Assembly: GCA_013076295.1 (NCBI GenBank)
Contig: RQOL01000374.1
Location: 4,888,743-4,952,742 of the forward strand
Source of the DNA: Sanderia malayensis
Lineage: Eukaryota; Cnidaria; Scyphozoa; Semaeostomeae; Pelagiidae
Direction of reading: 5' to 3'
Length of the DNA: 64,000 nucleotides
Positions 12,815 to 54,502 of the stretch are shown piece after piece (position 1 is the stretch's first letter; the number at the start of each line of letters is the position of its first letter). Under the pieces are notes generated by a model, which worked only from the letters and a program-made list of their open reading frames with translations, was not told where the DNA came from and ran no database searches. The position numbers were made by a program, and so were the translations under genes.

Positions 12815-15800
12815 ATGGAATCCAGCGCTGGTGAGAGGCCTGCCTGTATCATATGTGGGAAAGAAGGCAACAGTTTTAGTGAATGTAGCGATTTGACCTG
12901 ATGGAAAACATTGCACAGTGCAGCAAAAATTAGAAACCACACTGAAATTTTATCTTTGATGACAAATGAAAATGGTCTTCCCTGTACTGCCATTTCATAC
13001 CATTGAGATTGCAGATCTTCATTTACTCATAAAAAGGAATTGCTGAAATTGTCAGAGGGTTCTGCCACAGAGGGAAATAGAGCTGTCACACCAAGACCGA
13101 GGAGGGATGGCAGCACTTCTAGCTTTTGATTCTTCCAGTACAATGCATCTTTTGCAAAAAGGACAAGTACAAACCGAAGACAAGAACAAGAGAAAAGCTA
13201 CTTAGTTGCTCAGAGTTCAGAGCAGATGGCAATATAAGGAATAGTGCACTAAAGCACATCAACATGTGCACCCCAATGGCCGAAGTAGCCGATGAAATTC
13301 TGGTAATTTGCTCAAAGGATCCCATCCCAAGTGAAGCAAAATACCATGCTAGTTGCTATAAAAATTTTTCCAGAGTTTCACATGAGAGGGTAGAAGAGCG
13401 GAGGATGCAGTATGTTGAGAACCAACGGGATGAAATTGATACACTATTTTCAGGAGTAAGAGAATTCTGTGACGAATTGAATTGGAGTTGAATAGTTCAA
13501 AAGAATTAGAACGATTGTTGAGAAAAAGGCTAAAGACTTAGGTATCGAACTGCCTTCCATCGTATCACAATAAGCTGTTAAGAAAGGTATCTTCGAGCTT
13601 CAAAGAACTGAAGTTTGTCCACAAAACCCAAAGATGCGTCTTAGTCTACCCTTTCACTCTAGAGATGGATGATTTAGTCGTCAATTATCACAAGCTTTTG
13701 GCCGATATGAATTCAATCAATCAGATTTCAAGTAACGAAGAGAAAACAGTCATTCAAGTAGCAAAACTGTTGCGCCAGACCATACTTTCTCACAGATGTC
13801 ATGGCTGGCATCCAAAAGAAAAAGAGCTACAAGCTGAGAAAGTGCAGAATTTCATTCCACCGCTACTAGATAGGTTTTGCAGCACCCTTTTGACTGGCAA
13901 GCATGGAACAGAAAATTGGGAAGGCCAGACTATGCGAAAGAACTCTATTGCTCAAGACATGATTTATTCTGTATCAAATGGCAGACTGCTGACCCCAAAA
14001 AGTGTTCTATTCCCTGCAGTTGTGAAATCCCTATGCAACAATACAGAGGTGCTAAGACTGCTAAATAGGTTAGGCCATGGAATAAGCTATGATTTGGTAC
14101 AAGAGATCGAGACACAACATGCCTTGGATGTTATCAATGAGCAAACAGCGAACAAAGTGGTAATTTCTGAAGAAGATATGATAAGAGCTGCTGATAATGC
14201 CATTTCTATAATAATAGCTGACAATATTGAAAATCTGGAGAGCACTATAGCAGGCTTTGGAACATCACACCGAGTAAACTCAATATTGGTCACTAAGAAG
14301 GTTGAGGATAATGCTGATGAAACCGAAATAACAAGGCCAAACAAGCGCAAATGTCTTCACACTCTACCAGATGATAAGCTGAGGAAAGATTTGCCAGACT
14401 ATTATGCCGGAAGGAGAACTGGACCGGGAGCACCCAAATGGATCCAAAATCTAGCCGAGAGTCAAAGTTATACGGAGAGAGAGAATGGGCAAAAACAAGC
14501 CTTCCTTTATTGGATTGCATTAAGAAGCCTCAAATCCTTTCCTACAATCATTGTTCAAGGATGGACTGGATTTAACATTGCCGTAAGGAATAATGTTGTG
14601 ATTGTGGAAAGCAAAATTTCTTACTTGGGTACCATGGATTCCCCTGCAACAGATTTGAAGACTGCCTTTGAAGTATTATGCAGAGGAATGGAGATTAAAC
14701 ATCGCCTAACACTGAAAGTAGTCATTTGTGTTTTTGACCAGGCCTTTTATGCCAAAGCAGTTGAAGTTCAATGGAAGAACAAAGATGTTTTCAAAGATCT
14801 AGTTCTCATGCTAGGGGGTTTCCACCTCCTTATGATGTATCTTGGTATCCTTGGTTGCAGATGTGGTGATGCTGGGCTCAGAGAGATCCGCTGTCCAAAG
14901 TGAAATCATTACAGAGGGCTCAGTCGACAAAGCATTAGAAGGCAAAAATACAACAGTGCGGTTCGCATGCACAAAGTTATGTATGAGGCGTTAAGCTGTT
15001 TGCTTTATGAGAGCTTTGAAGCTTGGATGGCTGACAAGAATCCTGAAGTTCTGTCACAGTCACGTGAAGTCCTTGAAGATCTAAAATTAAACACGTCTCA
15101 AGAAAAATTTGAAGCCGTCAAGAAAGAGGGTGTGCTTAAGGAGCTCTATGAGCTCTATTTGAAATATCTGGCTTTGATTGAAAAAGATGGAGGTGATTTG
15201 CAAAGGTTCTGGCTTTCATATCTACAACTATGTGAGCTGTTGCTGAATCTAATCTTTGCAACCGGAGTAGGAGATTGGGAGTTATATCTCTCTTGCGTAG
15301 AGGAAGTTATTCCTTGGGCATTCGCGTATGATCGGCAAAAGTATGCCAGATATCTTCTCCCTTTCTCAGACGATATGAGACAGCTTCAGAGTGAAAAACC
15401 AGATGTATATGCAGCATTTACGCAAGGTGAGTTCTCTGTACAAATGAGCACGTCAAATCCGTTTGGAAGGAATGAAGCTCACAAGACTTTTGAGAATACG
15501 ATAAATAGAGATTGCAAGACAAGTGATGGTTACATTGGATTTAGCTCAAGCTTTACAGCCACTCAGAGATGGGTTTTAAATGCAGCACGTCGGGGGCAAT
15601 ACAGACGCCTTTTTCGCGAGCAGATTGGATTGAAGTCCAAGAAATATGTGCACAAAGAAATGGCACCAGCATGAGTTCGAAAGGACATTCTTGCTGTTGA
15701 GAAAGTTATCCAGGTTCTGGAAGACGTTTTCATCAGCCCTTGGAAAGGTGCAGAGCTGCTAAGGCTATCAACGGGCGTTGTTGCTTCTCTGGATGTGAAG

Positions 15801-17032
15801 CAAGACCTACTTGGTGCAAGGGAGAAAGGAAAGGAGCATGCAAAGCCTTTGTCATCAGCTGATGCTCTTCAGAACCAACAGCTGAATTTTTCGATCCATT
15901 GAAGAAGACAAATTTGAAGACCTTCAAACAGCTAAAGAAAGTCGTCAATGTGCAAAAGAAAGACAAACTCATCCCACTGAAGATGGACCGTACGTTGTTT
16001 GCACGCATGGCACTGATAGCACAATTCCAAAAAATTGATCTGAAAGAGGTCTTCAGTTATCCACTTGGCCCACTACCATGGGCGATTGCTGACCCCTATG
16101 GAATGCCCAGAAAAACAAATAAGGCACAGCTCCTGCAGAAACTTGAGAAAGGAACTTCCCCTGCTGATCAGTATCCTGAGCATGCTACAAGCATTTACGA
16201 TGGAATGGCAGCTCTTCAGAAATATCAGCCTCCAAGTGGATCAACATTTCGTACCGTGGCTGAGACTTTGCTTCAGATATGTTCAAGTCAAATCACTAGA
16301 AAGCTCCATATAGTTTTTGATGTGTATCGAGACATATCAATAAAGAATCCCGAGAGATCAAAGAGGAGTTCTGGCAGTGCTGAAGTGGTCAGATACAAGA
16401 ATATCCTTCCATCATATCCAATCAAGTCTTGGAGGAAATTGTTGTCGATCAAATCAAATAAGACAGAGATTGTGAAATTCCTTGTATCTGAATGGAAAAA
16501 GCCAGAGTTCATTGCCAAACTGGAAGGGAAGACAATGTATGTGACAGAAGGAAGCAGATGCTGGAGAATAACAGCGGACAGTTCTGAGATTGTTCCAGAG
16601 TTAGAATGTTCACATGAAGAGGCTGACACTCGCATGCTGCTTCATGCAAAATACACAAAGGGCCCTGTGGTCATTCATGCAGATGACACAGACGTGTTCA
16701 TATTGCTCCTTGGACACAGCAATGCCCTTTCAAACACCTACATGAACGTAGGAAAAGGCTCCAAGACAAGGATAATCAATATCGACAAGATTAAGGCAGC
16801 AATCACTTCAAAGCTACACACACAGATTTCAAGCCAAGAGTTTTGCAGATCGCTAATTGGCATGCATGCATTCACAGGATGTGATTCCATATCAGCACTA
16901 GCAGGCAAAGGAAAGAGTAGAGCTCTGAAGTTATTAATGGCCAATAGTGATTACATAGCAGCTTTCTCAAACCTTGGCGATACATGGATAGTGTCAGCCC
17001 ATTTACTAAGCAAACTCGAGGAATTTGTTTGA
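12815..17032 (+). pseudogene. Multicopy-family protein with FEN1/PIN-like nuclease C-terminus, broken
   Basis: An intronless coding track of about 1,400 codons in several frames. N-terminus: ERPACIICGKEGNSFSEC, a zinc-binding Cys cluster; then CIFCKKDKYKP and EAKYHASCYKNFSR. The middle (13665-14901) includes GPGAPKWIQNLAESQ and VLMLGGFHLLMMYLGILG. The C-terminal 377-residue frame (15899-17032) has CSHEEADTRMLLHAKYTKG, VVIHADDTDVFILLLG, then HAFTGCDSISALAGKGK. The spacing of E-E-x-D, D-x-D and GCD-(7)-GKGK recalls the acidic residues and helix-turn-helix of FEN1/XPG nucleases; that comparison is mine. Breaks: TGA near 12900 and 13005, shifts near 13125, 13490, 13570, 14890 and 14948, TGA at 15672, shift near 15895. 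Several can be explained by one base in a short run. The family resembles ones repeated many times in marine invertebrates and is probably mobile. Confidence 0.7.
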
Positions 17033-24850: not shown

Positions 24851-27800
24851 CTAGTTATTAGATTTATTACAGTGAGAGCATTTCCATTCAACATCTGTGT
24901 CATGGAATACCTGACCTGGTATTCTCTCACACATCCTGTGAAACCAATTCTGACATTGATTGCACTCTGCCATTTGCCTAGACAAAAACAGCAAATGCTT
25001 AAAAAATGTAATGAATGTTAAATCTAAACCTTAACAAATAGACATAGCTAACCTTGCAAACACTTTATCATCTGATTTTAGCCAAATTTGACGACAGCTA
25101 CAATATACATCGATTTCAATGAGTTTTTCAGGGCATTTTCTTGTTTTATGTGGTGTCTCAGGAAATGGTTCAAATTTGTTTTCCATGAGAATGCGCAGCA
25201 GATGTGATCTCATCTTTGATCCATCATAGTTAATTGCATGAATATCCAATGTTCCATACAGTATGGTACTTATGAATCCAATGGCATAAACTCCACAATC
25301 AACATTGTTTGCTTGCTGTTGAACTGGTAAAACCTTTACGTTTATCTTGTTTTTTCTGCACCTGAGGATATTGCAGATTTGCTGTTTTATTTTTTTTGTT
25401 ATTGATCCATGAAATGAGCTGTCCATGTACAATATTTCATTATCAGCACAACCGTATGTACTTATAGCTATCCAATGGAGATTTCCATCATGCAAAATTT
25501 GAACAAATGGGATGTCTACCAATGGCTTGAACTTCAGCTTTTGTCCCAGAACTGAGTCTTGCAATCCTGCTGGATAATTGAATTCCTTTGCCATCATCCT
25601 TTGAAATACATTTATTATGTTATCATTGAGCATCTCATTTTTTTCAAAAATCTTCAAATCTTTCTTTGTTAGGGTTGATCTGATAGAGCATTCTTCAATT
25701 CCCTGCTACCATATACAGAACAAGACTCCACAGTTGGTGCTGGGCCATGAATGTCTGTGCTGTCAGTGTCAGTGTCATTATCTTCAACTATTACATTCGC
25801 ATCTGCATGAATTATTTCAGAGCTCTCACTACCATCAATGAAATTTGGAACAATTGTCTCATCTACTGGGTTATCTTTCTTGCTTTTAACTTCAACTGTT
25901 TTTGCAGCTTCAATTTTGTCACGTTTCTCACCAACTCTTGAAACATACTTCCATTTTTGCTTTCTAGAGGGTAGAGACAGCAATTTTCTTTTTGACAAAT
26001 TTTTCATTGTTGAATTAGCAGTGCAGGGAAGTAATGGCAATCCTTTCTCTTCAGGACACACAGCATACAACTGTTCTTTCAACTGTTCAAGATCACTATG
26101 CAGTTTGAACAACGTTTCTGGTTGGCTCTCAAGTAAAAATGTTAAGGAACGGATTTCACTTATTGTCTCCCTAACAAGCACTCCACAGTTGGGAGGTATG
26201 CGTTCTTGTAGTTGATCAATTGGTTGATCTATGTTAGGCTCATGGATGGATCCATCCAAAATGTTGAAGCCCACTTCATTATCTGACTCTATTGCAGATA
26301 TTTCAACAGATTTTTCAACACTTGATTCTGTTTCAAGCTCTATCTTTCTGTCTTTTTCAGCACTGTCACAACCAAACAATTCATCTACCTGGAAGAATGG
26401 GGATTCTCTATAAATTGGCGACAATGCATTCCACGACCAGACAGGGAATACTCGAAATATTGCAAAGAAATGCTTGCAAAGGAAAGGGGACTTTTTCCAA
26501 TCGTAGCATGAGCAACTTGGTAACATTTTCTCGTTACCAAAGAAGACTTCATAGTCTTGGCAAAGAGTATTTCTTGAAAGACTTTGGACTGTGAATTTGC
26601 CATAACCAGTCATTACAACGTGTGAACTGGGAATACTGTCAGACAGATCTTTCTTCTCCAGCCAATGCTTTATGAAATCCTTTGGGCAGCTTCGGATCAT
26701 TTCAGGTACACTTTGTGCATGTAATCGATAGGATGAGCTTTGCTTCATATTTGCTTCACAGTATCTGTAGTATAAATATAAATTGACCAATTGGTAACAC
26801 TTTAAAATCAAAGCTAACTTTTGTTATCTGCATTGTGACGTTTAATGCACTTACCGGTCATACTTATCAGGAAAAAACTGGTCTATCAGTGTCATTAGCA
26901 TTCTGGTCAAAGATCTTTTTGTATTTCTCTCCAGATACTGGTATTTTAAAGCCTCATTTTGTCTCTCAGTACCATTATTTGTGTTGCAATTGACCAAAAT
27001 CCGATCTTGTCGATATGCCTGAACCCATCTCTGTAAAAGGAACTCGCTTGGTCAATCATAGATTTGAAAGCCGCAAACTGGTCGACATGTGTTAGCTAAT
27101 GAGCAGCATTAATTAGCAGAAGTAGCCCAACAATGTTGCCTAGTTTGGCTGTACCGTTAGTAAACATGTGAGCTACTGACGAAGATGCGCATACCTTTTT
27201 TATTGGAAGCCAGTACGTCTCGACATATTGTACTAATTTTCCATACTCTCGCTTTTTCCAAATCGGCGATGCTTTCAAATCTTTTTCTGCAAGCGTACAT
27301 CCTTCATCTGTCTGCGACCGGGCGATACGTCTCAACATTTCTAATACATCGGTGCGTATCTGTGAACAGCCATTTGCTGTTTTTCGAAGCCAGCGATCCC
27401 ATGCTTGTTCTCGGTGAAAGTCACACAGTAGTGTAAAGCAACCTAATTAAAAAGCAACAATTTTTTTTAATAACATGTCAAAAAGCTGGGCATGCTAACT
27501 GCAGTACTATCAGTAATAATAAAATTACCAGGAAAGACATTTTCTATAGCTGTAATTTCCTCATTGGAGTAATCTGTCATGAAATGCTTCGGCTTAAACT
27601 CTGGATTCCATTTCTTCATAATTTCAAGTGCTTCTTGGATACTCTCTGTTGTTTCACTCTCGCAAACAAATGTACCAACAACTTGGTAATCTACATTGGT
27701 GCGCACGACAAGAAAGAATAACGGCAGAGAGTATCGTGTTGTACGGTATGTTGCATCCAGCATTGCAAGCTCATTTCCATAGCGATTTAATAACCTCTTT

Positions 27801-29585
27801 TGCCAACTATTTTGATAAATAAACAGCAGCTGATTACGATGATTTCCTCTGCATTCAACGTCGACTGACTCATCAGAATCATAACCATCTCCACCATCAC
27901 TTTCTTCTTGTTTGATGTCAGCGTCTGAATGATTTGCAGATCTTGGGCGGAAAAATATCTTTACATCCGTGCCAGATTCTTTCCACTCAGTTACCTTTTC
28001 TTGCAAATATTCTTGGTCTACCATTGAATGACGAAGTTTTCTTGTCGTTACAACCATATGGTTTCTGATTACTTTGTCGCGAGGAAAGAATCTTCTATTT
28101 GATGCATCGGGCATTTCATCTTCACTGAATAGGGATGTTTTCACAAAAATCTTCAAGTGCCTTTTCATTTCGTTTACCCTGGAGACACCCTCGCGTACAA
28201 GCTTGTCAATCTTTTCCGCTAAACGCTCATCAATTTCTTGGGAGATACCGGCCACCTAATGAAATAAATCAACAAATTGCATTTTCTTACAATACTCTAA
28301 GTCACAAAAGTAGCATGAAAAGCACTTGGGATGTCATTGGTATAATTTCAATCATACTTACAGCTCCTATTGGATGATTGGCATGAGTTTCGCTATTGGG
28401 AATGTTGACGACAAATTTTCGTACTGTTTCAATACATGTTTGCGATTCAATTGCGACTTTTATTTTATTTGACGCAGATCTGCGCCTTTTTTCTGTGTTA
28501 TCATTGATCTGTAACAAAAAGGTAAGAGCTTCAATGATCCATAGCTCATGTTTGGAGCTTCTCCAACACTATCTCCTAAATGGTTTGTTGTAATATTACC
28601 TTATACTGTGGAAATTGCAGGATTTCTTGCAGAATTATTTTAGCTGGACATCCAAACTTTTTGGTGTCTTGTACAAGCGTGTACTTTCGTCGATAGCAAT
28701 GGTCATTACCCTAAGGATAAAAACGATTCTGAGTTCAATTATTGATTTCCAACTGCGAGCAAACTTGCTTTTAAATTAAATTGCTTTAAAGTGAATCAAC
28801 GGAATTACTTTAAATCACACTACATTGAAGTGAATTAATGTCAAAAGTGATACGTCAGGGGCTAAATAGCTATCCTCCAATCATATCGAAGGAACGCAAA
28901 GTTCATGTGATCAAAGAAGTGAGGAGACGCACACTGCACTGCCCATTTTTGTACATGTGATCAGCATTTACAGTTTCTGATAGTTTGGCATAGGCCTACC
29001 TGATCCTTGATTTTCTTATTTTTTCTGCTTTGTTTCTTCGCAGCCTGATAATCCTTTCCATGCTGACATTGTAAATACTTACTTCCCAGTATAAAGAACG
29101 GGACACCATTATATGGAGTCTGGCTATTGTTCCAATGCACTTTGTGCCTTGAGCCTCGGAAATCTAGGGTGCATGAAATCAGCTTGTTGTTCATGAAAAA
29201 GAAATACAGCTAGAAATTGCAAGAAAATTACTGAGAATAGGGAGTCTTACCTGTGTTTCCAAAGTCTTTTGTAGATTGATAGCACGAATAACGCAGCGTG
29301 TGCTGAAGTTCATGCTTTCTTATTATCTCTAGTGCCTCTTGGATTGTATTTGCATAGTGCACTGTAATTGATATAATGTCAATCATAAATTATTAGCTGT
29401 GTGTGAGCCAACGAGTGATACAAGAACTTTGCTAAGCTAGCCCCCCATACCTACCCCTGTTCTGGTATCGCTTTTTATAAGTAAACGTTCGATTACTAAC
29501 CATCATTAGATTCTTTGTCTTGAATGCTGCCAATTTGTGACTCATTTTCCGCGAATTCACTTTCTCCAGCGTTAACCTCGTCCAT
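24851..29585 (-). CDS. MULE transposase-SWIM-Ulp1 protease-PHD polyprotein
   Basis: Ten exons with matching phases: 29585-29501, 29361-29251, 29163-29000, 28710-28600, 28508-28362, 28255-27529, 27442-27195, 27030-26855, 26764-25053, 24977-24851 (stop TAG), about 1,202 aa. The DDE core is in exons 6-8: AMLDATYRTTRYSLPLFF (Asp near 373), KHFMTDYSNEE (Asp near 434), LLCDFHREQAWDRW and NNGTERQNEALK; I cannot place the third acidic residue with certainty. A SWIM zinc finger follows (CSCYDW...CKH, about 674-690). Then a Ulp1/SENP-type cysteine protease with a full catalytic set: HWIAIS, YMDSS, QQQANNVDCGVYA. Last, a PHD-type finger split over two exons: CSC, CNQCQNWFHRMC, CSHC. The transposase would act on the element ends in the nucleus; the protease and PHD parts suggest contact with SUMO/ubiquitin-like modifiers and chromatin (inference). 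One frame break lies near 25690, between transposase and protease; exon 9 length is off by one base there. Confidence 0.9.
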
Positions 29586-36583: not shown

Positions 36584-39500
36584 TTACAGGACTTCCTGGA
36601 AAACAACGTTCTTTGTTTTCCTGTGTGTTTCCTCTGGAAGGTATACTTTGAGCCCGTTAAATGATGTTGCTCTGACATGGCCACATATAATGACCATGTG
36701 TGAACACGCGCTCAGGTAAGTACAAACCAACATACCTGAGGGATTGCCCCTGTGCCTTGTTGATTGTCAAGCAGTATGCAAGTCTGACTGGAAACTGTGA
36801 TGGAGACTGTGATCTTGGGAATCATGACCCGTTGTCCTCTGTGCTCCTTGGTAATGATCTCAGCTGTGATCACGTGACGTCGGAGATGCCGAACTATGAG
36901 TCTTGTTCCGTTGCAAAGACCTTTCTTTGGATTGAGATTCCGCAGAAGAATGATCGTTGCACCAACCTAATGGAATGAATATTATTGCGATTCATGACGG
37001 CTTTTTTGTGGTGCACTACCTTTGCACATAATAATTTAATGTTAATAGGATGAAAGATTGTACTCTTCCCACCTTGAGTTTAAGTCTGTGCAACGGCATT
37101 CCATTCGGAGTGAGTTGGTTGAGAAATTCAATGGGGTAGGCCTCTTCCTCATCTGGATCGTCTGTGACAACACTGTCTGTGCTGTAATAAGTTCTTTCGG
37201 CTGTTTGAAGTCTGTCCAGAATTAAGTCGTTTACTTCATGTGATAAGTCATTGTTTGGAGTCAGACAACAGCGTTCAGACATTGTTACAGGATCCATCAT
37301 TAGGTGTGAATCTGGTGTGTTGGGCCTGAGAAAAATGAAGTTCAGGATGTCTTCTTTAGACGAAGTGCATATCTGTTGTGGCAGAATTACGTTGTCCAGT
37401 TCATCGTGTGCTTCTTGCTTGTTGCCAAGTCTGAGAAGCCATTCTGAGAATTCACGGTATGAATCATCTTGAACGGCTCTCATGTTGGTGTGTTAAACGA
37501 TGCTGCTGAAACTTTGTCCATAGATCAATGATCTGGTGTGATTTTAGAGTCTCTGCTACAATTCTTTCCCTTCCTGCTTTCGTGACGACAGGTAGAACTT
37601 GTCTGAAGTCACCACCAAGTAGCATGAACTTGCCACCAAATGGTCTGTCGACATGTGTAATGTCTCGAAGCAGTCGGTCGACTGCTTGTAATGCAAGTGC
37701 GGGAATCATAGAAGCTTCATCCCATATGAATAGGGTAGTTTCGCGCAATACCTGTGCTCTCCTGCTCTGTCTCTTGACATTACACGTTGATTCAGCTTGA
37801 AGTGGTATAGGAATTTGAAAGGTAGAGTGTGAAGTTCTACCATTTATGAGCAGTGTTGCAGCAATTCCTGACCACGCCATGCACTGAACTTTATGTCCAT
37901 TGGCTTGGAGATTGTGAACCAACGTGTTGCAAAGGAAAGTTTTCCCGGTTCCAGCCGGCCCGTCAACAAAGTGACAGTTCTGTTCGGATTGTGCGTTGAT
38001 AGCATCAGTGATTCCCGTGTATATGGCTCGCTGTTCAGGGTTCAATGCGGCCAGCATTCGTTCTCCTTCCTCTCTGGCATTGCCAACATCCATGTCATCT
38101 TCCTCTGTAATAATAAGTGAAATATATTGCAATAAAATCGTAAAGAAAGCGAGGAAAATCAATGTGCAAAAATACGTAAATGCCCTTGTCTGCACAATGT
38201 TAGGATACATTATTATATTGTTACTAATACAGTACATATTTGAAAACAACACATTAGTACCTCGTTCAGGAATGACATAGTCGGCTGGAAGTTGAGGAAG
38301 GTCAGCATAATTAGTGATCGATTGACCATGTACTTTCAAATTTTCGTCAATGTCATGTAGACATTGATACATGTGTCGGTCTTCAAAAGCTATGGCCATA
38401 TCTGGATGATTGAGCAGCGTCCTTGAAGGAATTCCATAGGTTTCCGTCTATCGTGCGAAGATCTTCAAACGACGTGGCACCTCGTTTATGGAGAAGCAAT
38501 AGTCTCAGTGCGAACCTTTGCTCACATGGTCGTGGGTGAACTTGATATATTCTGCCTATGACAGGCAGAGTTCTCCGCTGTCTTGCTTTCCATGTTTTGG
38601 TGCGCTCGTTGAAAACATAGTGTTCAGGAATTTCGTGATAGAGATATTGGCGTGCAGCCGGGTCTTGTGCATTCAGTTCAAACCAAGACGTCAGTGTGGT
38701 TTTTTTATTGATGTTTTGTAATTGTTCGACCCGGCCATTATCCTGAAAGTATACGGTCTGCTGACCAGGTAGATGAACATGCAGACGTTTGATAGTGTGA
38801 CTTTTCTCATGCATGGAAAATTGAAATATCCTATGAACAGCTTCATGAGTTCCAATATACCGAGCATTGATGTATTGGCGTACTTCATCGTGCTCAATAT
38901 CTTGAGGTACTTGCTGCTGCTGTCCTTCGAGAATTTCCACGTGTGCCATATCTTGTCCTTTATGAATATATTTGAAAATATATTTTACGGACTTGACAGT
39001 GCTACATATTTCGAGATTAATGTGACACTGATACTTGAGTAGAAGAAAGCGATTATGTGGCACAACCCATGTATCATCTAGAAGTCGATCTTCCAGATTG
39101 ACTGGGTGACGACAGCGTCGTCTGTAGAGAGGATAACCATTCGCATTGACTTGTGTTTCGGCAGTGCGATCTTTCGGAAATCGTTTCTTGCAATTGTTAT
39201 TCTCCATCCAAACACATCTGGGGTTGATATCACCGCATGGACCATGTGTCATGTGCTTTAGTACTAACTTGTGATATCTTGCATCCTGTGGGTCCGGAAT
39301 TTCAGCTGATATGAGTCGATCTACCTGTGGGTTTCGAAGAAAAATATCACATGTAAGTTGTACACATCAGAATGCATTGTGTTTTTACTAAGCCATACAG
39401 CTTATGATTATATATCATACTCAATAATAAATCTATAATAAATCTATCTTTTACTCTATAATAAATTATTGCTATAGATGTTACCTCTTCAGGTGTTCGT

Positions 39501-42380
39501 GGTCTATCGGCCTCACAGAGGAACAGAATCATGTGAGCGTGTGGTAGTCCTCTCTTCTGAAATTCGATGACATATACATGTGCAATAGTGTGTCCGAGAA
39601 TGTGCTTGTGAAGGACATCTTCCAGTAGTTCTTGTAGTTTCTGTTGAAATACTCGTGTGACGATGTCAGGCCGGTCATTCGCCTTCTGGTGTGGTAGAAT
39701 GTTTTCTGAGATCTCCTTCCACTTGGGATTGGCCGTCATGGTTAGGAAGATGTCAGGCTTGCCATACTTTCTTACGATGGTCATTGCATCTTGAAAGTTC
39801 TGGTACATATTTCGTTGACTGCCTGAAAAAGATGAGGGAAGTATGACAACCCGACCGACATCAATATGAAGGGGTTCGTTGGGATTGTTTGCCCTGGCCA
39901 TTTGATTTTCGATTTCAGCCCTTCTGTTCAGGTGATCCATCAGGCCTCGATAACTGTCAGCACGTAATTGCCGTTGATTCTGCAAAATCCAGTTGAGCTT
40001 GTTTCCTTCTATTTTGGTGTATGCATCCCCCAGATATTGTTGAAAGAGAAGTGTTGCGCTGTGGATCGTAGACAGTTGATTTCTGACTTGTATTCAATAC
40101 GAATAATATTCGGCGATTGTGAGTCTGACACGGTGGACACGATCAGGATTTTCCTGGTCTTGTCCTCGACGTGTAGGTAGACGTTGAAGGTCCAAGCTGT
40201 AACCCCGATCACCCTGAAAGAACAACAATGGATAGGTCAGAGGATCCGCAACGGGATCTAAGGCATTCATCTCCATAAGATTACCACGCCTTGTTCAAAT
40301 TTGAAGCTCTCTATTCTCGGGATTAGGAGCACCGCCATTGCGTGTAGTGTAGACTGCTGCAATTTCTCTGGCAGTAGGATTATCATATCTTCGATCTTGT
40401 TCTGGGCGATCGGTAATAATCATCTTGAGCCTGGGAATAGGCTGATCATTGGCAATGGCTGGCTGCCTTGGCTCTTGCAGTACTTCTCCCATTGTTTTAA
40501 AATGTTGAGCAAACCAATTTACTGCCATCAATTCGTTTTGCAGCAGCGCCACCATGTCTAAGTCCAAGTTTTGTTCTCTGGCTGTGTTCTGACGTTCTTG
40601 CAGTGCTTGTTGAGTGTCCATAATATATAATTCTGCATATTTTCTGGACCTGTCGGTTTCAGTTACCCCTGTTGAATGCAAGGAAACATTGTAAATTGAA
40701 ATTCGTTATCTCAACTGTAATTTTCAATGCAGCAAGTGCTTTGTTATAAAAGCATCATAAAGCACCTTGATTTTCGATTGGACAACTCTTGATATTCAGG
40801 CAAGGATATAGAGTTAATCCATTGTAGATTGAGTGGGAAAGGACGTGAGCGTTCTGTTGGAATCCGTTTCATCACGTGAAACTATTATATGAAAATGTAG
40901 CATAATATAAGAGATAAGAGACGGATGTTATTTTTACCTGTCATGTGGTATGCTTTTCCATGTATGGTGATGACTGGTGGTCCTCCATTAGCATGTCTTA
41001 CAACGTTAGCTGTCCAGGATGCCATCGCCATTAGTGAATTGTATCTACGGAAAATTTTGAGAAAATATTTAGATTCATCAGTAGTTCCAGTGTATAAATG
41101 CATGACATTTGCCGGGGGTGGTTGAATGGGGTGGAGAGTTATTAATCCTCCCATACAACATTTGTTGTATTGTTTTCTTGTGTTGAGTTCCTCTCGGAAG
41201 TACTTCGCTTCACAGTGAATACATGTTCTGGTCATTTTTCCAAGATGATGAGGCATTGGGGAGAATTGAGGAATTTCAAGAATAGGTTGATTTACTTCCC
41301 TTTCTTGATGTTCGATGGGTTGGGGGACATCATCTTGGTGTTGTGGTAGGATTTCGTCTTGCATTTCAACTTCTTGGAGTGGTACCGCCATTTCATTCCC
41401 TTCATTCTCATTTTGAACGTTGGCTTGCAATTGCATAGCAGCAGGTAATATTTGTGGATCCTGAAATGCAATGTAATGTAAGTTAATATAACTCAATCAT
41501 GTGTTTTGAAATGATAAAACTGAGACTTGTGAAGATATGTCCATTTAGAGAGCAAAATAATTTCCTGACATGGTCCTGTGGAGAATGACAGGTGTATTTT
41601 ATGGCAATTGTGATGTTAGTCTATTTTACCTGATTATCATGTGGAATTGGAATGTGTTGTTCCACGTTGATTTCATCAGGTTGTGCGGCCTTTCAATTTC
41701 ATTATTTTCATTTTCAATATGTGTTTCGGGTTGCATCTGCATTGGCCGTATCTGTTGAAATGAAAAGGAAATGAAATTATTTACATAAAGTTATAAGTTA
41801 TTGGAAATTTTAATGTCGTTACTGTGTAATTGTGTAAATTGATATAAATAAATATGGAAACTTATAGTACATGTGGAAAATAGTCAAATTGCATGAGGCA
41901 TTTGGGTTATGGAGAATGGACTTGCCTAGCAGTAGTTAGCTTGTGTTAACAATTTTATTTTACCTCATTGTCATTTTGAGCTTGATTTACATTAAGCATT
42001 TCCACATCTGCCGTTTGTATTGCCGCTTCACCTCCATGATTACGATTCAGAAGGGGTGGCCAGTGCTGCAGGATATTGTAAGCCTGGTTGTGGTACTGCT
42101 ATAAGTCCGTAGTGGGGAAGCATCGCAGGTAGTTGCCATGGCACATACAATGCCTGCATCTGTGGATAAGGAAGTGGGAGTGGTTGATATTCTGGGGCTG
42201 GTTGCTGAGGGTATTCTTGCTGCAACTGGTGAAGATCATTCACTGCTCCCTGTACCATATTATCAGGTGGTAAATGAACTGGATGAGGCTGTTGGTTATT
42301 CTCACGACTTCGGCGATTTGCTTTCCTGACTTGATCGCAGCGCCTTGAGCCGGTGATGCTTTTTCTGGCTTTTTTGGCAT
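36584..42380 (-). pseudogene. Helitron 1 Rep/helicase protein, decayed
   Basis: Start near 42380 (MPKK), then Q/P-rich N-terminal exons to about 41630, and an exon at 41462-40939 with CIHCEAKYFREELNTRKQ and NSLMAMASWTANV. From 40671: SRKYAELYIMDTQQALQ, NGGAPNPENRELQI, then a stop and frameshifts. The Rep nuclease part has PDIFLTMTANPKWKEI, the HUH motif in RGLPHAHMILFL, and the two-tyrosine motif KYIFKYIHKG. The Pif1-type helicase part has Walker A DGPAGTGKTFL, Walker B LFIWDEASMI and GGDFRQVLPVV, ending with LAYCLTINKAQGQSLRYVGL and VVFQEVL before TAA at 36584-36586. Rep would nick and join DNA in rolling-circle transposition, and the helicase unwinds it. Introns lie near 40680-40940, 39260-39480 and 38105-38260. 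At least six single-base breaks (for example TGA at 40305, and near 36715 and 36680) make it inactive as read. Confidence 0.85.
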
Positions 42381-44279: not shown

Positions 44280-44416
44280 TATTAACATACTTACTATAGA
44301 TACTATACATAAATATATACATCAATACATACCCTATATACTATATATAAATACTATACATAATATACATACCCTACATATATACATACATACATACATA
44401 CATACATACATACATA
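44280..44416. repeat. CATA microsatellite at the break of Helitron 2
   Basis: TATA/CATA-rich tract becoming pure (CATA)n at about 44383-44416. It directly abuts the truncated helicase frame, which runs into it as a repetitive tail. Confidence 0.9.
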
Positions 44417-47400
44417 CTGCCTGCTTTCTTGACGACTGGCAGTACTTGCCTGAAATCAGCGCCAAGCATGAAGTATTTGCCGCCGAAAGGTCTGTCGACT
44501 TTGGTGATGTCTCTGAGCAAACGGTCAACTGCTTTGAGTGCTGTTGCTGGAATCATGGAAGATTCGTCCCAAATGAATAGCATTGTGTCTCGCAGTTGTT
44601 GTGCTCTGAGACTTTGTGCTTTGATGTTGCAAGTGGAATCGTCGAGCAGAGGAATCGGTATTTGAAATGTTGAGTGTGCAGTTCTGCCGTGAATGAGTAG
44701 CGTTGCTGCTATTCCAGAGTATGCTACACATTTGACTTTGTGTCCGGAAGCTTGCAGGTTGTGTACCAATGTGTTGTACAGGAAGGTTTTGCCAGTTCCT
44801 GCTGGACCGTCAAGAAAGAAGCAGTTGTCCGGTGACTGCGTCTCGATGGCTTGCACAATGGTGTTGTGTACCTGCAGTTGTTCTGGATTGAGTTGCTCGA
44901 ACATTCGTTGTCCTTGCTCTTGTTCTTGTTCGATGTTGATTTCGTCAGCTGCCTGTCGTGGCTGTGCATAGTCGGCAGGTAGCTGCGGCATCTCGGGGAA
45001 GTCCTTGAGGGATTTTCCGTGAATTTGCAGGTTTCTCTGGATGTCAGCCAGGCACATGTGGATGTGTTGCTGCTGGAATGTTGCATTTGGATCCTGCAGC
45101 AGATCGTGTCTGATGTAATCTTCTGCCATGTCTTCTTGGAATTCTGTGAAGAGAGCATCAATGTCGCTCGGAGTTTGAAACAGAATGAGTGTTACAAACA
45201 ATTGTCTCATCTGTGCCGGCATGTGTACAACCACTGCATCTCGCAAGCAACGTCTGTGCTCTGCATCATCTTCCAAGAGTGCCATTGCTCTTGCTGCATT
45301 CTTGAACGTGTTGTGAGTGACTCCGTCAACTGTTCGAATGTCTTCAAAGGAAGTTGCTCCTTTTCTGTGCAGCAATATCAGTCTGAGGGCGAAGCGTTCA
45401 GCATCTGAAGGTAGAACATTGTATATTCTGCCTATGACGCACTTGGCCGCTCGACGCTTGCATTGCTGCCACTGCTTGGTGGATTTGTTGAAAGTGTAGT
45501 GCTCTGGTATGTCTTGGTATAAATACTGGTGAGCATTCTGTTCGCTCTGGTTGAGGCTGAAGTATGCCATGAGCATGCTGTCATTGTTTCTCTGTGCAGC
45601 TTGCTCTGGGTCTGTGAAGCATACGGGCTGTTGGTCAGGCAGGTGAATTGCAAGTCGGATGATCGTGTGACTCTTATCGTGCATCTCGTATTGCATGAGT
45701 TTGTACACTGCCTGATGCGGACCAACGTATCTGGAATTCAGGTACTGACGTATCTCATCGTGGACGATATCTTGTTGTGCATTTGCTTCTTCGCGACCTT
45801 CTCTGATTTCGACATGTGCCATCTCATTGCCTTTGTGGATGTACTTGAAAATGTACTTGACACTTTTGACGGTTGTGCAAACTTCCACGTTCATGTGGCA
45901 GTCGAACTTGAGAAGGAGTTTGATGTTGTGTGGCACAACCCAAGAATCGTTCAGTCTGTGTTGCCTGAGTTGAGCAGTTGTTTGGCCTGCAAGAAAGTGC
46001 CATGGTTACATTTGTGTACATTTCACGGAAAGTGTAAATCATAAGTACGAGATGCAATTCATCTTGACATACCTCGTCGTCTGTACAATGGGTATCCATT
46101 GACATTGAATTCTGTTTGTTGTGCGAGGTCTTTTGGGAACTTCTTTTTGCATTTCCCGCCTTGCATGCAAACGCATGAGGGATTGAGAACTCCACACGGG
46201 CCGTGCATCATGTGTTTCTTGACCATTCGGTGTTCGTGGACGTGGGTGTTCTCGTCTGGAATCTCTGCCGATATGATGCGGTCAACATCCGCTGGTGTGC
46301 GTGGTTTGTCTTCGTGGGCAAGAGATATGATCATGTGAGTGTGCGGCAGTCCACATTTTTGAAATTCTACCGTGTAGACGTAAGCGACCACTTTGCCAAA
46401 GAAGTTGAGATCCAGTATATCACACAGCAGTTCCTTGAATTTCAAGTGAAAGACGCGTGTGACAATGTCTGGTCGATCTTGTGGCGTCTGGTTAGGTAGC
46501 AAATTGTCCAAGACGTCTTGCCAGTTCGGATTCGCTGTGAATGTCAGGAATATGTCTGGCTTGCCGTGTTTTCTGACAATGGTCATGGCATCTTGGTAAT
46601 TCTGCTGCATGCTTCGTTGACTGCCAGTAAATGTGGATGGTAAGATGACGACTCATCCAACGTCAATGTGCTGCACTGTGCCTGGATTGTGGGCTTGAGC
46701 GAGCAGATTTTGGTGTTCAGCTACTCTGTACAGGTGATCCATCAGTCCTTTGTACGACTCAGCTCTGAGCTCTTTCTGATGGGATCTGATGTAAGCAAGG
46801 TCGTTGCCTTCTATCTTGGTGAATGCGTCAACCAAGTACTGTTGAAACAGCAGTCTTGACAGGTGAAGGGCTGAGAAATTCTCTCGCACTTGGATTCTGT
46901 ACATGTAGAATTGGCTGGGGGTTACTCTGGTTTGGCGCCGTTCAGCTTGGTCAGCGGGGATTTGTGAACGTGCTGATGGCAGTCTTGCGATTGTTGTACC
47001 CCAACCATGTTCACCGAACGGAAACAGCAGCGGATACGTGAGTGGATCGGCGGTCGGATTGGTTGCTTTGATGTCAATCAAGTAGCTGTCACGTCTCTGG
47101 ATGTGCATGGCTCTTTCGTTTGGATTTGGTGCACCACCGTCCTTAGTGCTGTAGATTGCTGCTATTTCTGACGCTGCTGGACTGTTGTATCTTCGATCCT
47201 GGTTGGTTCTTGACTTGATGACCATATCGAACGTGGGAACAGGCTCGTTTGCTGCAGTCGCCTCTTCCTGTTGCTGTTGCAGTATCTCGCCAATATTTTT
47301 GTATTCTTGAGCATACGGGTTGACTGCAAGAAGTTCGTCTTGGAGCTTCTTGATGGTGTCCTTGTTCAGATCCTTGTTGCTGGGGTTGTTTGCTCTGTGC

Positions 47401-47444
47401 TCAAGTGCTTCACCCGTATCCATGATGTACAGCTCAGCATATTT
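44417..47444 (-). pseudogene. Helitron 2 Rep/helicase, C-terminally truncated (main part)
   Basis: Continues on the minus strand from the N-terminal exon at 55588-54667 across the inserted 7-kb transposon. Segment 47444-46073 has KYAELYIMDTGEALEHR, GGAPNPNERAMHIQRRD, LTYPLLFPFGEHGWGT, then PDIFLTFTANPNWQD and the HUH motif in CGLPHTHMIISL. One in-frame TGA (about 46653) replaces a codon in the segment before VVILPS. A short intron (46072-45987) leads to 45986-44417: KYIFKYIHKGNEM (two catalytic Tyr), DGPAGTGKTFLYNTL (Walker A), LFIWDESSMI (Walker B) and GADFRQVLPVVKKAG. The protein stops there in a CATA microsatellite, so later helicase motifs are missing. The rest is well conserved, but it differs clearly from Helitron 1. 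Confidence 0.88.
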
Positions 47445-47584
47445 TGGACTTGCCACAAGTCTCGCTCTAAAAATTCATGAGAACGAAAAAAAATGAGATG
47501 AGAAAGAAAAAAATATGAGAAAAAAGGAAAGGAGAGAGGAGAGAGAGCGAGACTTGTAGGGTTGGTAACTTCAAAACGAGACTC
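47445..47584. repeat. Left TIR of the RecQ/DUF6589 element
   Basis: About 140 bp, matching the right TIR closely except in a purine-rich middle (GAAAAAAAATGAGATGAG versus GAAAAAAAATATAACG). It contains its own inner inverted repeat: CAAGTCTCGCTC near the outer end and GAGCGAGACTTG about 80 bp inside, so a single strand can fold. The RecQ start codon lies 170 bp further in. Confidence 0.93.
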
Positions 47585-47754
47585 TATTGTGTTCTCGTTG
47601 TTGCCGGACCATATTCTGTCCGCCGGCACATCCTTTGATGTCAGATTTCTTCTAATCATATTCGATGAGGACAATGTCCACATGACTTGATTGTACTTCC
47701 AAAACGGGGGAGAATAAATCCCAAATTTCGCGACGAAGGCATTCGATCGAAATA

Positions 47755-49903
47755 ATGGCGGATACGTTTTCAGACACAGTGCTGCAAAATGCTTGTGAAA
47801 GGCTTAGATTTTCCGAACTAAAAGAGAAACAGAAAGAAGGAGCAAAAGCTATCCTGCAAGGTAAAGACCTTTTTGTTGCACTACCAACTGGTTTTGGTAA
47901 ATCAGCCATTTATCAAATTGTACCGTTTGCAGTTCAAGAGTTGCAGGATCAAAATAGGCCTAAGACGAGTTGTCATTTTGCGTTGGTGATTTGTCCATTA
48001 AATTCACTGATTCGCGATCAGATTAATCAACTGCAGAGTAAAGGCATTCGCTCACTCTCTCTGGGAGATTCGGCGACAACACCTCAAAAAATTAGTGAGC
48101 ACAACTATTCTTTCCTGTTTACTTCACCTGAAGCTGTACTTGGAGATTTCCGAAAAGAATTAAAAGCCGTGATTTCCAGGAATTTTTGACGTGTGTCGTG
48201 ATTGATGAAAGCCATTGTATTGTCAATTGGTGAGAATCTTTATTTTTGTCATTCAATTTTTCAGAGCTAGCTGAGCTGTAAACAGCAAAAATAATAAAAT
48301 AAAGAGTGTCATTTTTATGATACCAAACACACAATGATTAGTAGGCTACTCAATTATTTTTTTAAAAATGTTCAAAATTTTAGAATGCAAAAACTAAACA
48401 AGACAGCAAGATACTCTCAAATTACATGGATATACTGTATAATTTTGAATTAAATAAGACAAGATGCCCTCAAATTACATGAATATACTGTATAATTTCT
48501 TGGTTCTGGGTAAGGACATCATCTAGGGTGTTAGCTCATTATTGTGCTTTTCTTTTTACTATTAATTTATAATATTCTCATGTTCTTTCCCCAGGGGTCT
48601 GGAGAGTAAAAAGACAAAAAGATTTCGGTACCAGTATGGAAAGATTGCTGATTTACGTTCTCTTTGGACTGTTGAGAAGAACATCCCATTTGTTGCAATG
48701 ACTGCAACAGCAACAGAGATGGTGCGCAAAGAGATAATCCAGAACCTGCAGCTGCAAGCACCACTACAAATTATAGAGTCACCGCAACGAAAAAACATAA
48801 GATACAGTGTTTTTAAAATGAAAGAGGATAATTCAAGTAACCTTGTTGATTTTCTTGCTAAATTGTTAAAAAAGGATGGTATGCAAAGTGAGAGAACAAT
48901 TATATTTTGCAGGAAGCTCAGTCATGTGCGAAGTCTTTATCAAAAACTAAATGATGAACTTTGCACAGTTTTTCCAAATGAAAAGCCATATGAAAAATAC
49001 CAGGGAAATACAGATGAGGATGTAAAAGTAAAAATAACTGACTCTTTTGCAAAGGCAGATGGGCATGTGAGAGTACTAATTGCAAGTATTGCCTTTGGTA
49101 TGGGAGTGGATTGTAAAAGCCTGCATCATGTTATCCACTATGGACCTCCAACTGACATAGACTATTACTGTCAAGAAACAGGCAGGGCTGGCAGAGATCA
49201 AGAGCAAAGTCATGCATTGCTGATTTTATTTCCGAAATGCTTTGCAAAGAATACTAGTCTGGCAATTAAAGAGTATTGTAAAAATACTGAGAAATGTAGA
49301 CGCGAACTTATGCTCAGTCATTTTAAGGGAAGTTTTGACAAGGTGACACCGGGTCATAACTGTTGTGATATCTGCTCCAAGGCATGTACTTGTGTGGGAT
49401 GCAGTGATAGCAGCGTAATTTTTCATTCAATGTTTGAGCTAGCTCTTCATGCCCAAGAAAATACCATAGCCACTAATGGACTAATCATTCATGATATCGT
49501 AATGAAGGAACTCTCTGATACTTTGATTTCATTCAGAGAAGCATTGTTTTGTGAATTAGCTCAAAAGCCATTGTACACTGGAGCAGAATTAGCCATAGGA
49601 TTTCCTTCAGGATCAGTTGAAAAAATCAAAGGAAATTTCAAACAGATACAGAATGCTAATGATGTGATGAGACTGGCACATATATTAGATGCTGGTATAT
49701 GCAATTCAGTTTTTCAACTAATAAAAGAAATCAAATATGAGTATGATTACTTAATTGTGGATATTGCCTCAAACGAAGGAGAGCCTTCAGAGACAGGACA
49801 ATATGATTCTCCAGAAAGTGATTTCTGGTCAAGTGATTCTGAAGATGGTGATGCTAACCAATATGCAATCAAACCACTAGTTGAAACTGATGATGATGAA
49901 TAA
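47755..49903 (+). CDS. RecQ-type DNA helicase of the 7-kb element
   Basis: Exon 1 is 47755-48229 and exon 2 is 48595-49903 (intron GT-AG), about 594 aa. RecQ helicases unwind DNA 3' to 5'. Motifs in order: LPTGFGKS (Walker A, 43-50), VICPLNSLIRDQI (motif Ia), FLFTSPEAVLG, VVIDESHCIVNWG (DEAH-box as DESH), FVAMTATATEMV (motif III), TIIFCRKLSHV (motif IV), VLIASIAFGMGVD (motif V) and QETGRAGRDQEQSHA (motif VI), then the RecQ zinc-binding cysteines CRRELMLSHF and HNCCDIC. An acidic serine-rich tail ends the protein. One T is missing in a T run at about 48182-48187, giving a premature stop just before VVIDESH; with that single base the two exons join in phase. The start MADTFSD lies just inside the left TIR. 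It may assist transposition or replicative copying of the element (inference). Confidence 0.9.
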
Positions 49904-49916
49904 ATGTATATGACTA

Positions 49917-52900
49917 TTAATCATCCCCTGGTAGAGCATTTAACATTTTGTAAATACTTAGTTTTTCAAAGCTTTCAATTTTCTTTATGACCCATTCTGC
50001 AAATTCCTCAATATCAATATTTTCAAGAATGTTACTTTTGAAGCCTGCAAATGCATGGTGGTATCTTCCATCAAGTTGCTCAAAAATCTTATGTTTTGAA
50101 AATTGCTTTGCAAGCTCATGCACATCTGCTATAACATTTTGTTTCACGTGTTTCCCTGAAGGACTGTGAATTTTCGATGCTTCGTCATGAGCTGCCATGA
50201 GTGTATCCATTGCAGTATAGGAACAACTGGCCCTTGCAATGCTCTTTGGGGTAACCTTCCCTTGAAAGCTCTTGCAGTCCTTTTTAAATGACTTCACATG
50301 ATGCTCCACAGTTCGATCATTCTCAACATTAGAATCTGCTTTTCCTTCAGAGTTATTAGTGCGATTCCAAACCAACTCATGTGCCATTGATGGTGGTAAT
50401 AGATGATACACCTGAGCAATTGTGTAAAGGCTGTAAAATGCATATTTGTGACGAGCTTCTAGCTTGAAGTAAAGCAACATAAACTTGTACAGACATATTA
50501 TCTGTTTACCGTTACCTTGCTTTCGTGCTGAGACAAAGCTCTTTGCAAATAGCCCAAGTGCTAAAGCATTCTTTGAATAATTCAGAACACCATCTTCTGT
50601 ACTACTGGGCAATGTCAATGAAGATACCTCATCATTGTGTTTCTCTGTGATGTGTTTTCTCAGGCTTTTTATTCTCTTATAGATTTTATGGCAGTGTGGG
50701 CATTTATTATATTTCTTTCCAGTTGGAACTTTTGGAAATTCAGGGAGGGCAAAATTATCAACAATGAGGTCCAAAATATTGTTACAGTTCTCTTCTTGCT
50801 CCCATGATAATGCAGATTCTGTTCTTGTTTGGGATTTGACAATTTCAAAGCATGCAATGACCAAAGCATCTGTATATGAACTTAAAAGATCATATGCTGC
50901 ATCTGGGTCATCCATCGGATCCAATGGAGCATTGACAGCATTAAGGAATATCTTTGCTTGATACAGCGTTCCAATATTGCTAGAACTATTTTTGTCAAAC
51001 ATTAGTCTCCAGATTACCTAAAAATGGTTGTAAATATATTTGTATTGTTTACAAGAATTAAAAAATTCATGAATTTCAAACCAAAAAACATGATATCATC
51101 AATTTTTAAGTTGAACATACAGTATCAAATTGAATGAAATTGAATTAAACATGCTAAATTGAATAAAATTCCAAAAGATTATGAAATTGTTTAATACACT
51201 ATTAAAGTTTGCCTTTCACACTTATGCACAAAGTCCTAAAAACAAGAAACTTACTCCCAAAAAGTTTCCAAATGTGTGGAAATCCTCAAGGCAGGGTATT
51301 AAGCCTCCAACTTTACCCCGTAAAGATGTCGAATTACTCCTATCTTCAATGCCATTTATGTGTCTTTCAACTGTTAATAAATCACCTCCACTCAAAAGAA
51401 AAACAGGATTCTCACTGTTAATTCTCGGAACAAATGTCTGCTCGTAATTCATAATGTCAATAATTTCTATAGAATCATTTTCATTTTTCTCTATTACTCC
51501 AAGTGAAACCTGCAATAAAAAATAAAATAGTATCTTTATTATCTGTTCTCTGTCCGGCTTTTTTAAGGAAATTAACAACTTTCTTAGCAATGACATGGGG
51601 AAACAAAACAAATGATCAATATTAGTGCAATATTAAAATCATATTTTTTGAAATCAGTTATTCATTTCCTCAGACCAAAAATGGACCAGAAAGGGATGGA
51701 AAATTCTTAACATTTATTTCAGGGCTCAAATCAAAGTTTTATTGAATCTTGATTTGTTAAGGATATTTTTTGTTCAATCTGAGCAATTAAATTTAGCCCT
51801 TCAACTAATCACCCGAACAGATAGTTTTCAAAGTATTTTAAATACATAATATAATAGAGCTACATAAGTATTTCACATAGCTCTATCTGCTAGCAAAGAC
51901 ACTTACTACAGATGATTTTTTTTTGGTGAATTTTGAATATTCATGAGCAATGTGGGTAGGCACATATTTTCGCATCCAGTCCAGTTCCTTTATGTATTTG
52001 ATAAGGATATTTCCAACAATATTTCTGAAATCTTGTCTCAACTTCAGATTATCATCAACAGATGGTACAAATTTCGATGGGCATAAAACCTGATCCTTTC
52101 TTCTTCCGAACTCGGATTTTGCATCTCCTTTAATTCTGTTTTGCATTGCTACGAGAATGTACAAATGCATGTCTTCTCCAGTACTCAGCCTGTTAGTTAT
52201 TCGCTTCTTTGTACGTATGTCACAGTTGTCACCAACTAGCCTGAATGATGTTGGGCATGACCTTGTTTGAAGACTGTCACATTTTTCAACACCAGTGACC
52301 ACAATATTAACTGTATCGGAATCAAGTTCCTGCACTTCAATGTTCTCAAGTCCCTTATCATGAGGCATCTGACTGTCTTTAACCTGGGATAAAATACAAA
52401 CTTTTCCATTAAAAATTTTGTTTTTGCATTAAAGTTGCACCATATGTGAGGTTATAAGGAAAATATTTGCTGAACATTTTTGCTATTTTTGCTATTTGCT
52501 ATATCATTTGTGAATCCATCAAATCAGTTTCCAAAAGTTTGATGTTTTTGATTGGCTGAAATGTTGCATGCATTTCCATCATATTCTTTTCAGACAACTT
52601 GGCTGACTTTTCCCAATATAACCTAAACTTGTTCTTGGGAATGGTAGAGAATCAGTTTAAAATAAGAATAAGAAAGGTTGAACTTTAAGGCTAACTGTTC
52701 TTTGAAGAAGAACCATGTACTGCACATACAGTATGTGTTACAATAAACTTACCAAATGTGTGTCTATCCATTCCAAAACCGGATCTTTAAAATTATGACC
52801 CATCTGAAATTGCTTGTTTAATATTTCACCATATGACAAGGTCAATGATCTGGCATTAAGCCTGGTAATTGCTGCTTTACTTACTCCACCTCTGCGAAGA

Positions 52901-54265
52901 ATCATTGAATTTAAAATTGGATGAACATTCATTTTATTACTCCAAGAATTAAGTATAATTCCTGCAGCTGTCATCAATCTTGAGGTAATGTTTTCTTTTG
53001 TCTTCAGCTTGTTTCTCTTGATCTGTTTTCCATTGCACCCAGCAGCATATAACACTTTAATAAAGAAAGGGCAGTGTTGTTTGAGATCAATTTCTTGAGC
53101 ATTGAATGAAATCTTTTCAGGCAGTTCTGACATATGGTGCAATTTGAATGTGCTATTTTGCGAGCAAAACTCTCTCACTTCATTTGTAATATTTTCACAG
53201 AATTTTTTTTGCAACTCTGAATAAATTGCTTCATTTTTCAAAATGCAATTTGCTATCCCAGAAACATTGTTAGAGACAATATTTTGGGTGAGTGGAACAA
53301 ATTCCTTAGGAACACTGGTGTGACTGGAAGTTCCATGTGATGTAAACACAACCTGCAATAAAAAAGTAAACATCTCAATATTTTATGCTTAGAATGACAA
53401 CAAAACTCTGGGAATTTAAAAAAATAATAATTAAATAGAAAGATATTGTTTGCAATGTTTTTGCAGTCAGAAATAGAGATAGAGAAATAGAGAAAATAAC
53501 ACTAAAAATAAACAATAACAGCAAACAAAATACAATCAATGAGTACTGAGTACTCCCTTGCTCTTGTGAGCATTAACATTATTTTGGTTATAGAGTTGAG
53601 GGATGATAAAACTGAATATTTGTTACCTTTGCTTTTAGCTCTTCATTCGCAGAATCGAACAAAAAAGTTGAAAGTTCAAATGCAGTTGTCGTAGTTGTAT
53701 TTGTTTGTTCATTTTCTTTATTTTTTTGCTTCAGGTCACCAAAGTCAAGCTTCTGTTTTTTAAATTTTCTCAGAAGCTTTGCGTCATTTGCCAATAATAA
53801 TCCTTTGTTAATTTCACTATTAGGCTTGGCTGGTGATTTTTCTAAATACCTCTTCACTTGTTTTTTAGCATTCTTTCTTCTTCCAGTCTCAAAATGGCAC
53901 ACACGCTTGCGTTTTTCTTCATTCGCCCTTTTCACCGTTCTAAAACAATTCTTGCAAATAATTCTATAATCAGTAGCATCAAGCTTCAATTGCAAATAAG
54001 ACTCTAGAATTTCTCCAGCATTTGTTAATTTGGTAACATTTTCTAACTTGAACTGACCATCGTCGGCACTGTGCTCATCCCACAGACGAATTTTCATATC
54101 AGCTGGGTTTTTATATTTTCCTACAACATTTTCACAGCAAAGAATGCATATATCTCTTCCTTCGGGAGATAATCTATATAATACTTTCCACGAAGTCTTC
54201 TTATCCGGTGTCGTTTGTTTCTCACTCTGGTCACTTCTTTCACATCCACCACTCGTCTCCGCCAT
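49917..54265 (-). CDS. DUF6589-family protein, proposed transposase
   Basis: Five exons, 54265-53627, 53352-52753, 52383-51907, 51509-51255 and 51017-49917, all joined in phase 0, give 1,023 aa with no break. N-terminus: a four-cysteine module (CILC at 40-43, CKNC at 104-107), spaced like ZAD-type protein-interaction zinc modules, then a basic segment. The DUF6589-like core has FRLVGDNCDIRTKKR (Asp 465, 468), PVFLLSGGDLLTVERH (Asp 615) and later EARHKYAFYSLYTIAQ and RTVEHHVKSFKKD (Glu near 895). A C2H2 finger, CPHCHKIYKRIKSLRKHITE, sits at about 763-784. Family name is from motif recall (GDN, GGD-LT-ER, ARHKYA). The spaced acidic residues suggest an RNase H-like nuclease; that is my inference. 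The start is just inside the right TIR; a second in-frame ATG lies at 54325. Confidence 0.82.
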
Positions 54266-54357
54266 TTTTGTGTTTACAAATTGACAAACATAACAACATA
54301 ACAACTGTTTAGTTTTAACACACATCCCCCGTGCAACAACATATGGTCCAGCCGCTG

Positions 54358-54493
54358 GAGTCTCGTTTTGAAGTTACCAACCCTACAAGTCTCGCTCTCT
54401 CTCCTCTCTCCTTTCCTTTTTTTCTCGTATTTTTTTTCGTTATATTTTTTTTCGTTCTCATGAATTTTTAGAGCGAGACTTGTGGCAAGTCCA
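54358..54493. repeat. Right TIR of the RecQ/DUF6589 element
   Basis: Complement of the left TIR, ending GGCAAGTCCA at 54493 and followed by TSD copy AGCATATTT. The ATG of the DUF6589 gene is about 90 bp inside, so this TIR probably holds its promoter. Confidence 0.93.
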
Positions 54494-54502
54494 AGCATAT
54501 TT

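Follow-up and report, generated by a model that had tools for sequence, protein, structure and literature searches.

The locus examined here, in a 64-kb stretch of the genome of the jellyfish Sanderia malayensis (hereinafter the window), raises the question of what kind of DNA transposon carries a RecQ helicase alongside a protein with a DUF6589 domain, and whether the helicase belongs to its transposition machinery.

Boundaries and genomic copies of the element

The complete element is 7,049 bp long (window positions 47445–54493) and is bounded by a left terminal inverted repeat (TIR) of 140 bp (47445–47584, plus strand), which starts with TGGACTTGCCACAAGTCTCGCTC, and a right one of 136 bp (54358–54493, minus strand). 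The 9-bp sequence AGCATATTT is perfectly repeated on either side (47436–47444 and 54494–54502) as the target-site duplication (TSD), bearing out an earlier sequence-only reading that had given TIRs of about 136–140 bp and a perfect 9-bp TSD. The two TIRs are 93% identical, with their inner 65 bp being perfectly complementary. The left one holds a 14-bp inverted repeat (ACAAGTCTCGCTCT/AGAGCGAGACTTGT, with 75 nt between) and a terminal GACTTG-cca-CAAGTC; a 14-bp inverted repeat and a terminal GACTTG/CAAGTC palindrome are present in each of the two TIRs and possibly constitute several putative transposase-binding sites.

The host site of the element is itself a Helitron, with a Helitron_like_N open frame at 46653–47474. 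When its flanks are joined they yield 40 matches in the genome, one of which is the left flank in the window itself. Eight of the other 39 were aligned, and all eight are Helitron paralogues with a single AGCATATTT and no insertion, i.e., empty sites. None of these eight sites displays an excision footprint; as paralogues, they say little on excision.

Using the left TIR as a query against the S. malayensis assembly (184.0 Mb in 918 contigs) we recovered eight matches, which correspond to both termini of four copies: the one in the window and those at C303:1144209–1152883 (8,675 bp), C778:450–7501 (7,052 bp) and C686:4326904–4333949 (7,046 bp). The search of the same genome that had been proposed as a check thus returned a family of full-length copies with the same gene pair. 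They are 99.4–99.7% identical over their aligned parts and are flanked by four different perfect 9-bp TSDs (AGCATATTT, CAGATGGAC, CCATTCATC and CTAGTTAGC), and therefore this four-copy family has moved recently. The C303 copy has an insertion of 1.6 kb within intron 3 of the DUF6589 gene, at the equivalent of window position 51889. This insert, which seems to be non-coding, is another TIR element (AAGAAGAGGGAAAAATGTA...) lodged within the intron and bordered by a separate 9-bp duplication, CTAGCAAAG. While the left and right TIRs of the same element are 93–94% alike in three of the four copies, the left TIR of the C686 copy is of the right-end type, and the right TIRs of the window and C778 copies match it at 136 of 136 positions. 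Among the four copies the right-end type occurs at a left end in C686 alone (compare window positions 47495–47519), a pattern that suggests conversion between the ends of the element.

Related termini are more widespread: a pattern built from the initial 23 bases and tolerating at most three mismatches has 43 matches in the genome as compared to none for the reversed control. We examined 16 two-ended elements, namely the four full-length copies, an 11.2-kb element on C581, a 3.3-kb element and ten measuring 72–783 bp. Ten of these possess perfect 9-bp TSDs (representing eight independent events, as three elements have one flanking repeat in common), three have 9 bp with one mismatch, one has 8 bp and two are ambiguous. 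The deleted copies that the sequence-only reading had suggested looking for are hence found, as short derivatives with related TIRs and mostly 9-bp duplications. The 11.2-kb element (C581:168934–180096) is a long, diverged version that carries a RecQ of its own along with a DUF6589 exon at 59% identity. Proteins supplied from other copies would mobilize those that are defective as well as the miniature derivatives.

The two genes and their association

The RecQ gene lies on the plus strand and comprises exon 1 (47755–48229), encoding the DEAD domain with the Walker A motif TGFGKS, an intron (48230–48594; gtgaga...cccag) and exon 2 (48595–49903), encoding the Helicase_C and RecQ zinc-binding domains with the motif QETGRAGR. 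The product matches the Pfam models PF00270 (5.1e-13), PF00271 (4.3e-16) and RecQ_Zn_bind (9.1e-06), and its nearest solved structures are WRN and bacterial RecQ. The RecQ of the window is not intact, which corrects the sequence-only reading: relative to the other three copies, exon 1 has a one-base frameshift, and the frame ends after 144 aa at a stop at 48187–48189. The C303 and C778 copies are frameshifted in exon 2 and exon 1, respectively, leaving the C686 copy as the only one of the four with an open RecQ frame (594 aa, with the motifs TGFGKS, DESHC and QETGRAGR). As RecQ is broken in three of the four young copies, the helicase may work in trans, or an individual copy may be able to do without it.

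The second gene, on the minus strand, has five exons with GT–AG introns and codes for a protein of 1,023 aa that matches Pfam DUF6589 at 1.9e-26. Exon 1 (53627–54265) contains the start codon, in agreement with the public gene model P0001, and is followed by exon 2 (52753–53352), exon 3 (51907–52383), exon 4 (51255–51509) and exon 5 (49917–51017), the last with a C2H2 zinc finger. These exon models confirm the earlier description of exactly two genes running inward and converging tail to tail, with 13 bp between their stop codons. Based on conservation, we predict a candidate DDE triad formed by D465 (exon 3, motif GDN), D615 (exon 4, motif GD.LT.ER) and E895 (exon 5, motif DR..EH), with the C2H2-like zinc finger situated between candidate acids. 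In alignments whose rows take in the family's own copies and several overlapping loci, D615 is conserved in all 25 rows, E895 in 25 of 27 (with a valine at C303:1799) and D465 in 11 of 13 (with a tyrosine in the C390 pair of loci). In a profile search of solved structures, the matches of this protein were mainly to zinc fingers, and there was no transposase among them. Searches for homologues in a set of 5.8 billion proteins recovered only two, one from the same genome and another at 57% identity, which, from the resemblance of its name, is presumably a gene model from the jellyfish Aurelia.

Across the genome, 118 matches to DUF6589 exon 5 merge into 91 loci and 95 matches to RecQ into 84. 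Among these scored candidates listed by the searches, a RecQ lies no more than 8 kb from 58 of the 91 DUF6589 loci, in 51 cases tail to tail and in seven otherwise arranged, while the remaining 33 have none within that distance; the count includes a C579 locus that merges DUF6589 matches from both sides of its RecQ and a RecQ on C581 that is paired with two DUF6589 loci. Under a uniform expectation only 0.66 such pairings would arise, and we accordingly reject chance association. The pairing, within 1.5 kb of the exon, is still visible at RecQ identities of 35–50%. Furthermore, the protein distances of RecQ and DUF6589 across ten families are correlated at r = 0.95, a value reached by none of 10,000 permutations. 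The correlation is 0.90 (eight families) once near-duplicates are removed and 0.79 (seven families; reached by seven of 20,000 permutations) when the most distant family is also left out. In comparisons of each gene with eight chosen relatives, the synonymous sites have reached or nearly reached saturation, whereas nonsynonymous divergence is 0.27–0.52 for DUF6589 and 0.33–0.48 for RecQ; judging from these sequence comparisons, both genes are under purifying selection. Linkage, correlated divergence and nonsynonymous constraint thus point to the helicase as an old, selected partner, and the proposal of a transposon type with RecQ as part of the unit gains support from both the copies and the genome-wide linkage with DUF6589.

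A sister subfamily (C303:1392448–1398600, including C303:1393583) likewise combines DUF6589 with RecQ and shares the position and phase of the RecQ intron. It differs from the window element in that its antisense DUF6589 gene, with about 26% identity, is located between RecQ exons 1 and 2, apparently inside the intron of the helicase gene. The right terminus of this subfamily was looked for and not found. Near-identical copies of it are present on C430 and C591, and the N-terminal exon is seen there too.

Probable affinity to AcademH

In the portions of the literature consulted, AcademH is described as the helicase-encoding lineage of the Academ superfamily, with TSDs of 9 or 10 bp, as against AcademX of the same superfamily, which has a nuclease gene and TSDs of 3–4 bp; this difference in TSDs is tied there to the helicase versus the nuclease (PMC10045372). 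For fungal AcademH elements, DEAD and Helicase_C domains are listed (PMC10799480). The name goes back to Kojima 2020 (Mob DNA 11:15; cited in PMC10045372 and PMC10799480), whose title gives animals and fungi. The window element resembles AcademH, by comparison of descriptions, in having a helicase gene beside the putative transposase gene and TSDs in the range of 9 or 10 bp. Specifically, its RecQ has both the DEAD and Helicase_C domains, the TSD is a perfect 9 bp in all four full-length copies and the host is an animal; among the published descriptions consulted, no feature contradicts it. Hence, we consider it very probable that the window element belongs to the AcademH lineage, as a DNA transposon that was active recently and is inserted into a Helitron. 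The sequence-only reading knew of no named superfamily with such a design and had staked this on the lack of a match to a named group; AcademH, on its published description, provides that match through its helicase and 9–10-bp TSDs, and the design appears to have been already described in 2020. The DUF6589 protein would then be the Academ transposase, a proposal drawn from the design of the element, with AcademH being known here by description. If confirmed, this link would allow a Pfam family of unknown function to be given a new name.

AcademX, with a nuclease rather than a helicase and TSDs of 3–4 rather than 9 bp in the description consulted, is rejected: XPG_I has four matches in the whole genome, none of them near any DUF6589 locus. 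That the element instead belongs to a new superfamily distinct from Academ, which resembles AcademH merely in its helicase and 9-bp TSD, is in our estimate highly unlikely. The likeness to AcademH does rest on description rather than on an Academ protein sequence, and a full-text search of the literature collection consulted gave no paper with the term DUF6589; however, a helicase with a 9–10-bp TSD in an animal is AcademH as described in the sources consulted, and both helicase domains agree.

Still less probable, to the point of being remote, is the capture of a host RecQ gene by a Mutator (MuDR) or Kolobok element. MuDR elements usually have 9-bp TSDs and long TIRs, as seen here. However, the 1,023-aa protein has no match to PF10551 (MULE) at E-values up to 1, though the same scan detects MULE elsewhere in the window (27467–28255), and we reject MuDR. 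KolobokH, which the source, as far as consulted, states to be fungal only (PMC9587614), is comparable in being a transposon with a RecQ helicase. Kolobok is likewise rejected, its TSD being the 4-bp TTAA as opposed to the 9 bp found here. Moreover, the linkage and co-divergence of RecQ and DUF6589 speak against a single capture for either group.

The role of the helicase

The observations show that a defined element has inserted precisely, with a stagger of 9 bp at both of its ends. We posit that the DUF6589 protein might catalyze DDE-type cleavage and strand transfer, with RecQ as a partner rather than a passenger, which would unwind DNA at the ends, in the flanks or at the post-integration gap. 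Of the two steps that the sequence-only reading had entertained, a helicase-assisted one is plausible, whereas we found no direct evidence for a replicative one. The contrary idea, that RecQ is a hitch-hiker without any part in transposition, would account for its being frameshifted in three of the four young copies and for its not being found near 33 of the 91 DUF6589 loci; yet long-term purifying selection on RecQ, its co-divergence with the DUF6589 gene and its retention in many diverged families argue against this, and we regard it as distinctly unlikely. The notion of the helicase as part of the machinery was at first a guess; given the tight linkage, correlated divergence and purifying selection, it is now a proposition that can be tested.

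A stronger form of that partnership, which we offer as a speculation with a low chance of being correct, would make RecQ an obligate, co-evolving subunit whose helicase step alters the pathway, so that AcademH would differ from plain cut-and-paste in coupling DDE chemistry to a helicase. RecQ might in that case unwind, e.g., a hairpin at the element's end or a strand that has been copied out, and the putative transposase gene of the sister subfamily, with its apparent location in the helicase intron, would lock the two genes together. The young four-copy jellyfish family, with its empty sites and the open helicase of the C686 copy, offers material for addressing why a DDE-type transposon retains a RecQ.

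Several further features lie elsewhere in the window. Helitron remnants occupy 37464–40093 and 44374–47474, with a PIF1-like helicase at 37464–38447 in addition to the above-mentioned Helitron_like_N frame. Three consecutive long open frames (453, 256 and 389 aa) on the plus strand at 13542–17032 have no Pfam match at an E-value of 0.001. On the minus strand, 25031–28255 contains in a row a MULE/ZSWIM-like RNase H frame, a SWIM zinc finger frame and a Ulp1-type protease frame, an arrangement that may represent a MULE-type element encoding a C48 protease.
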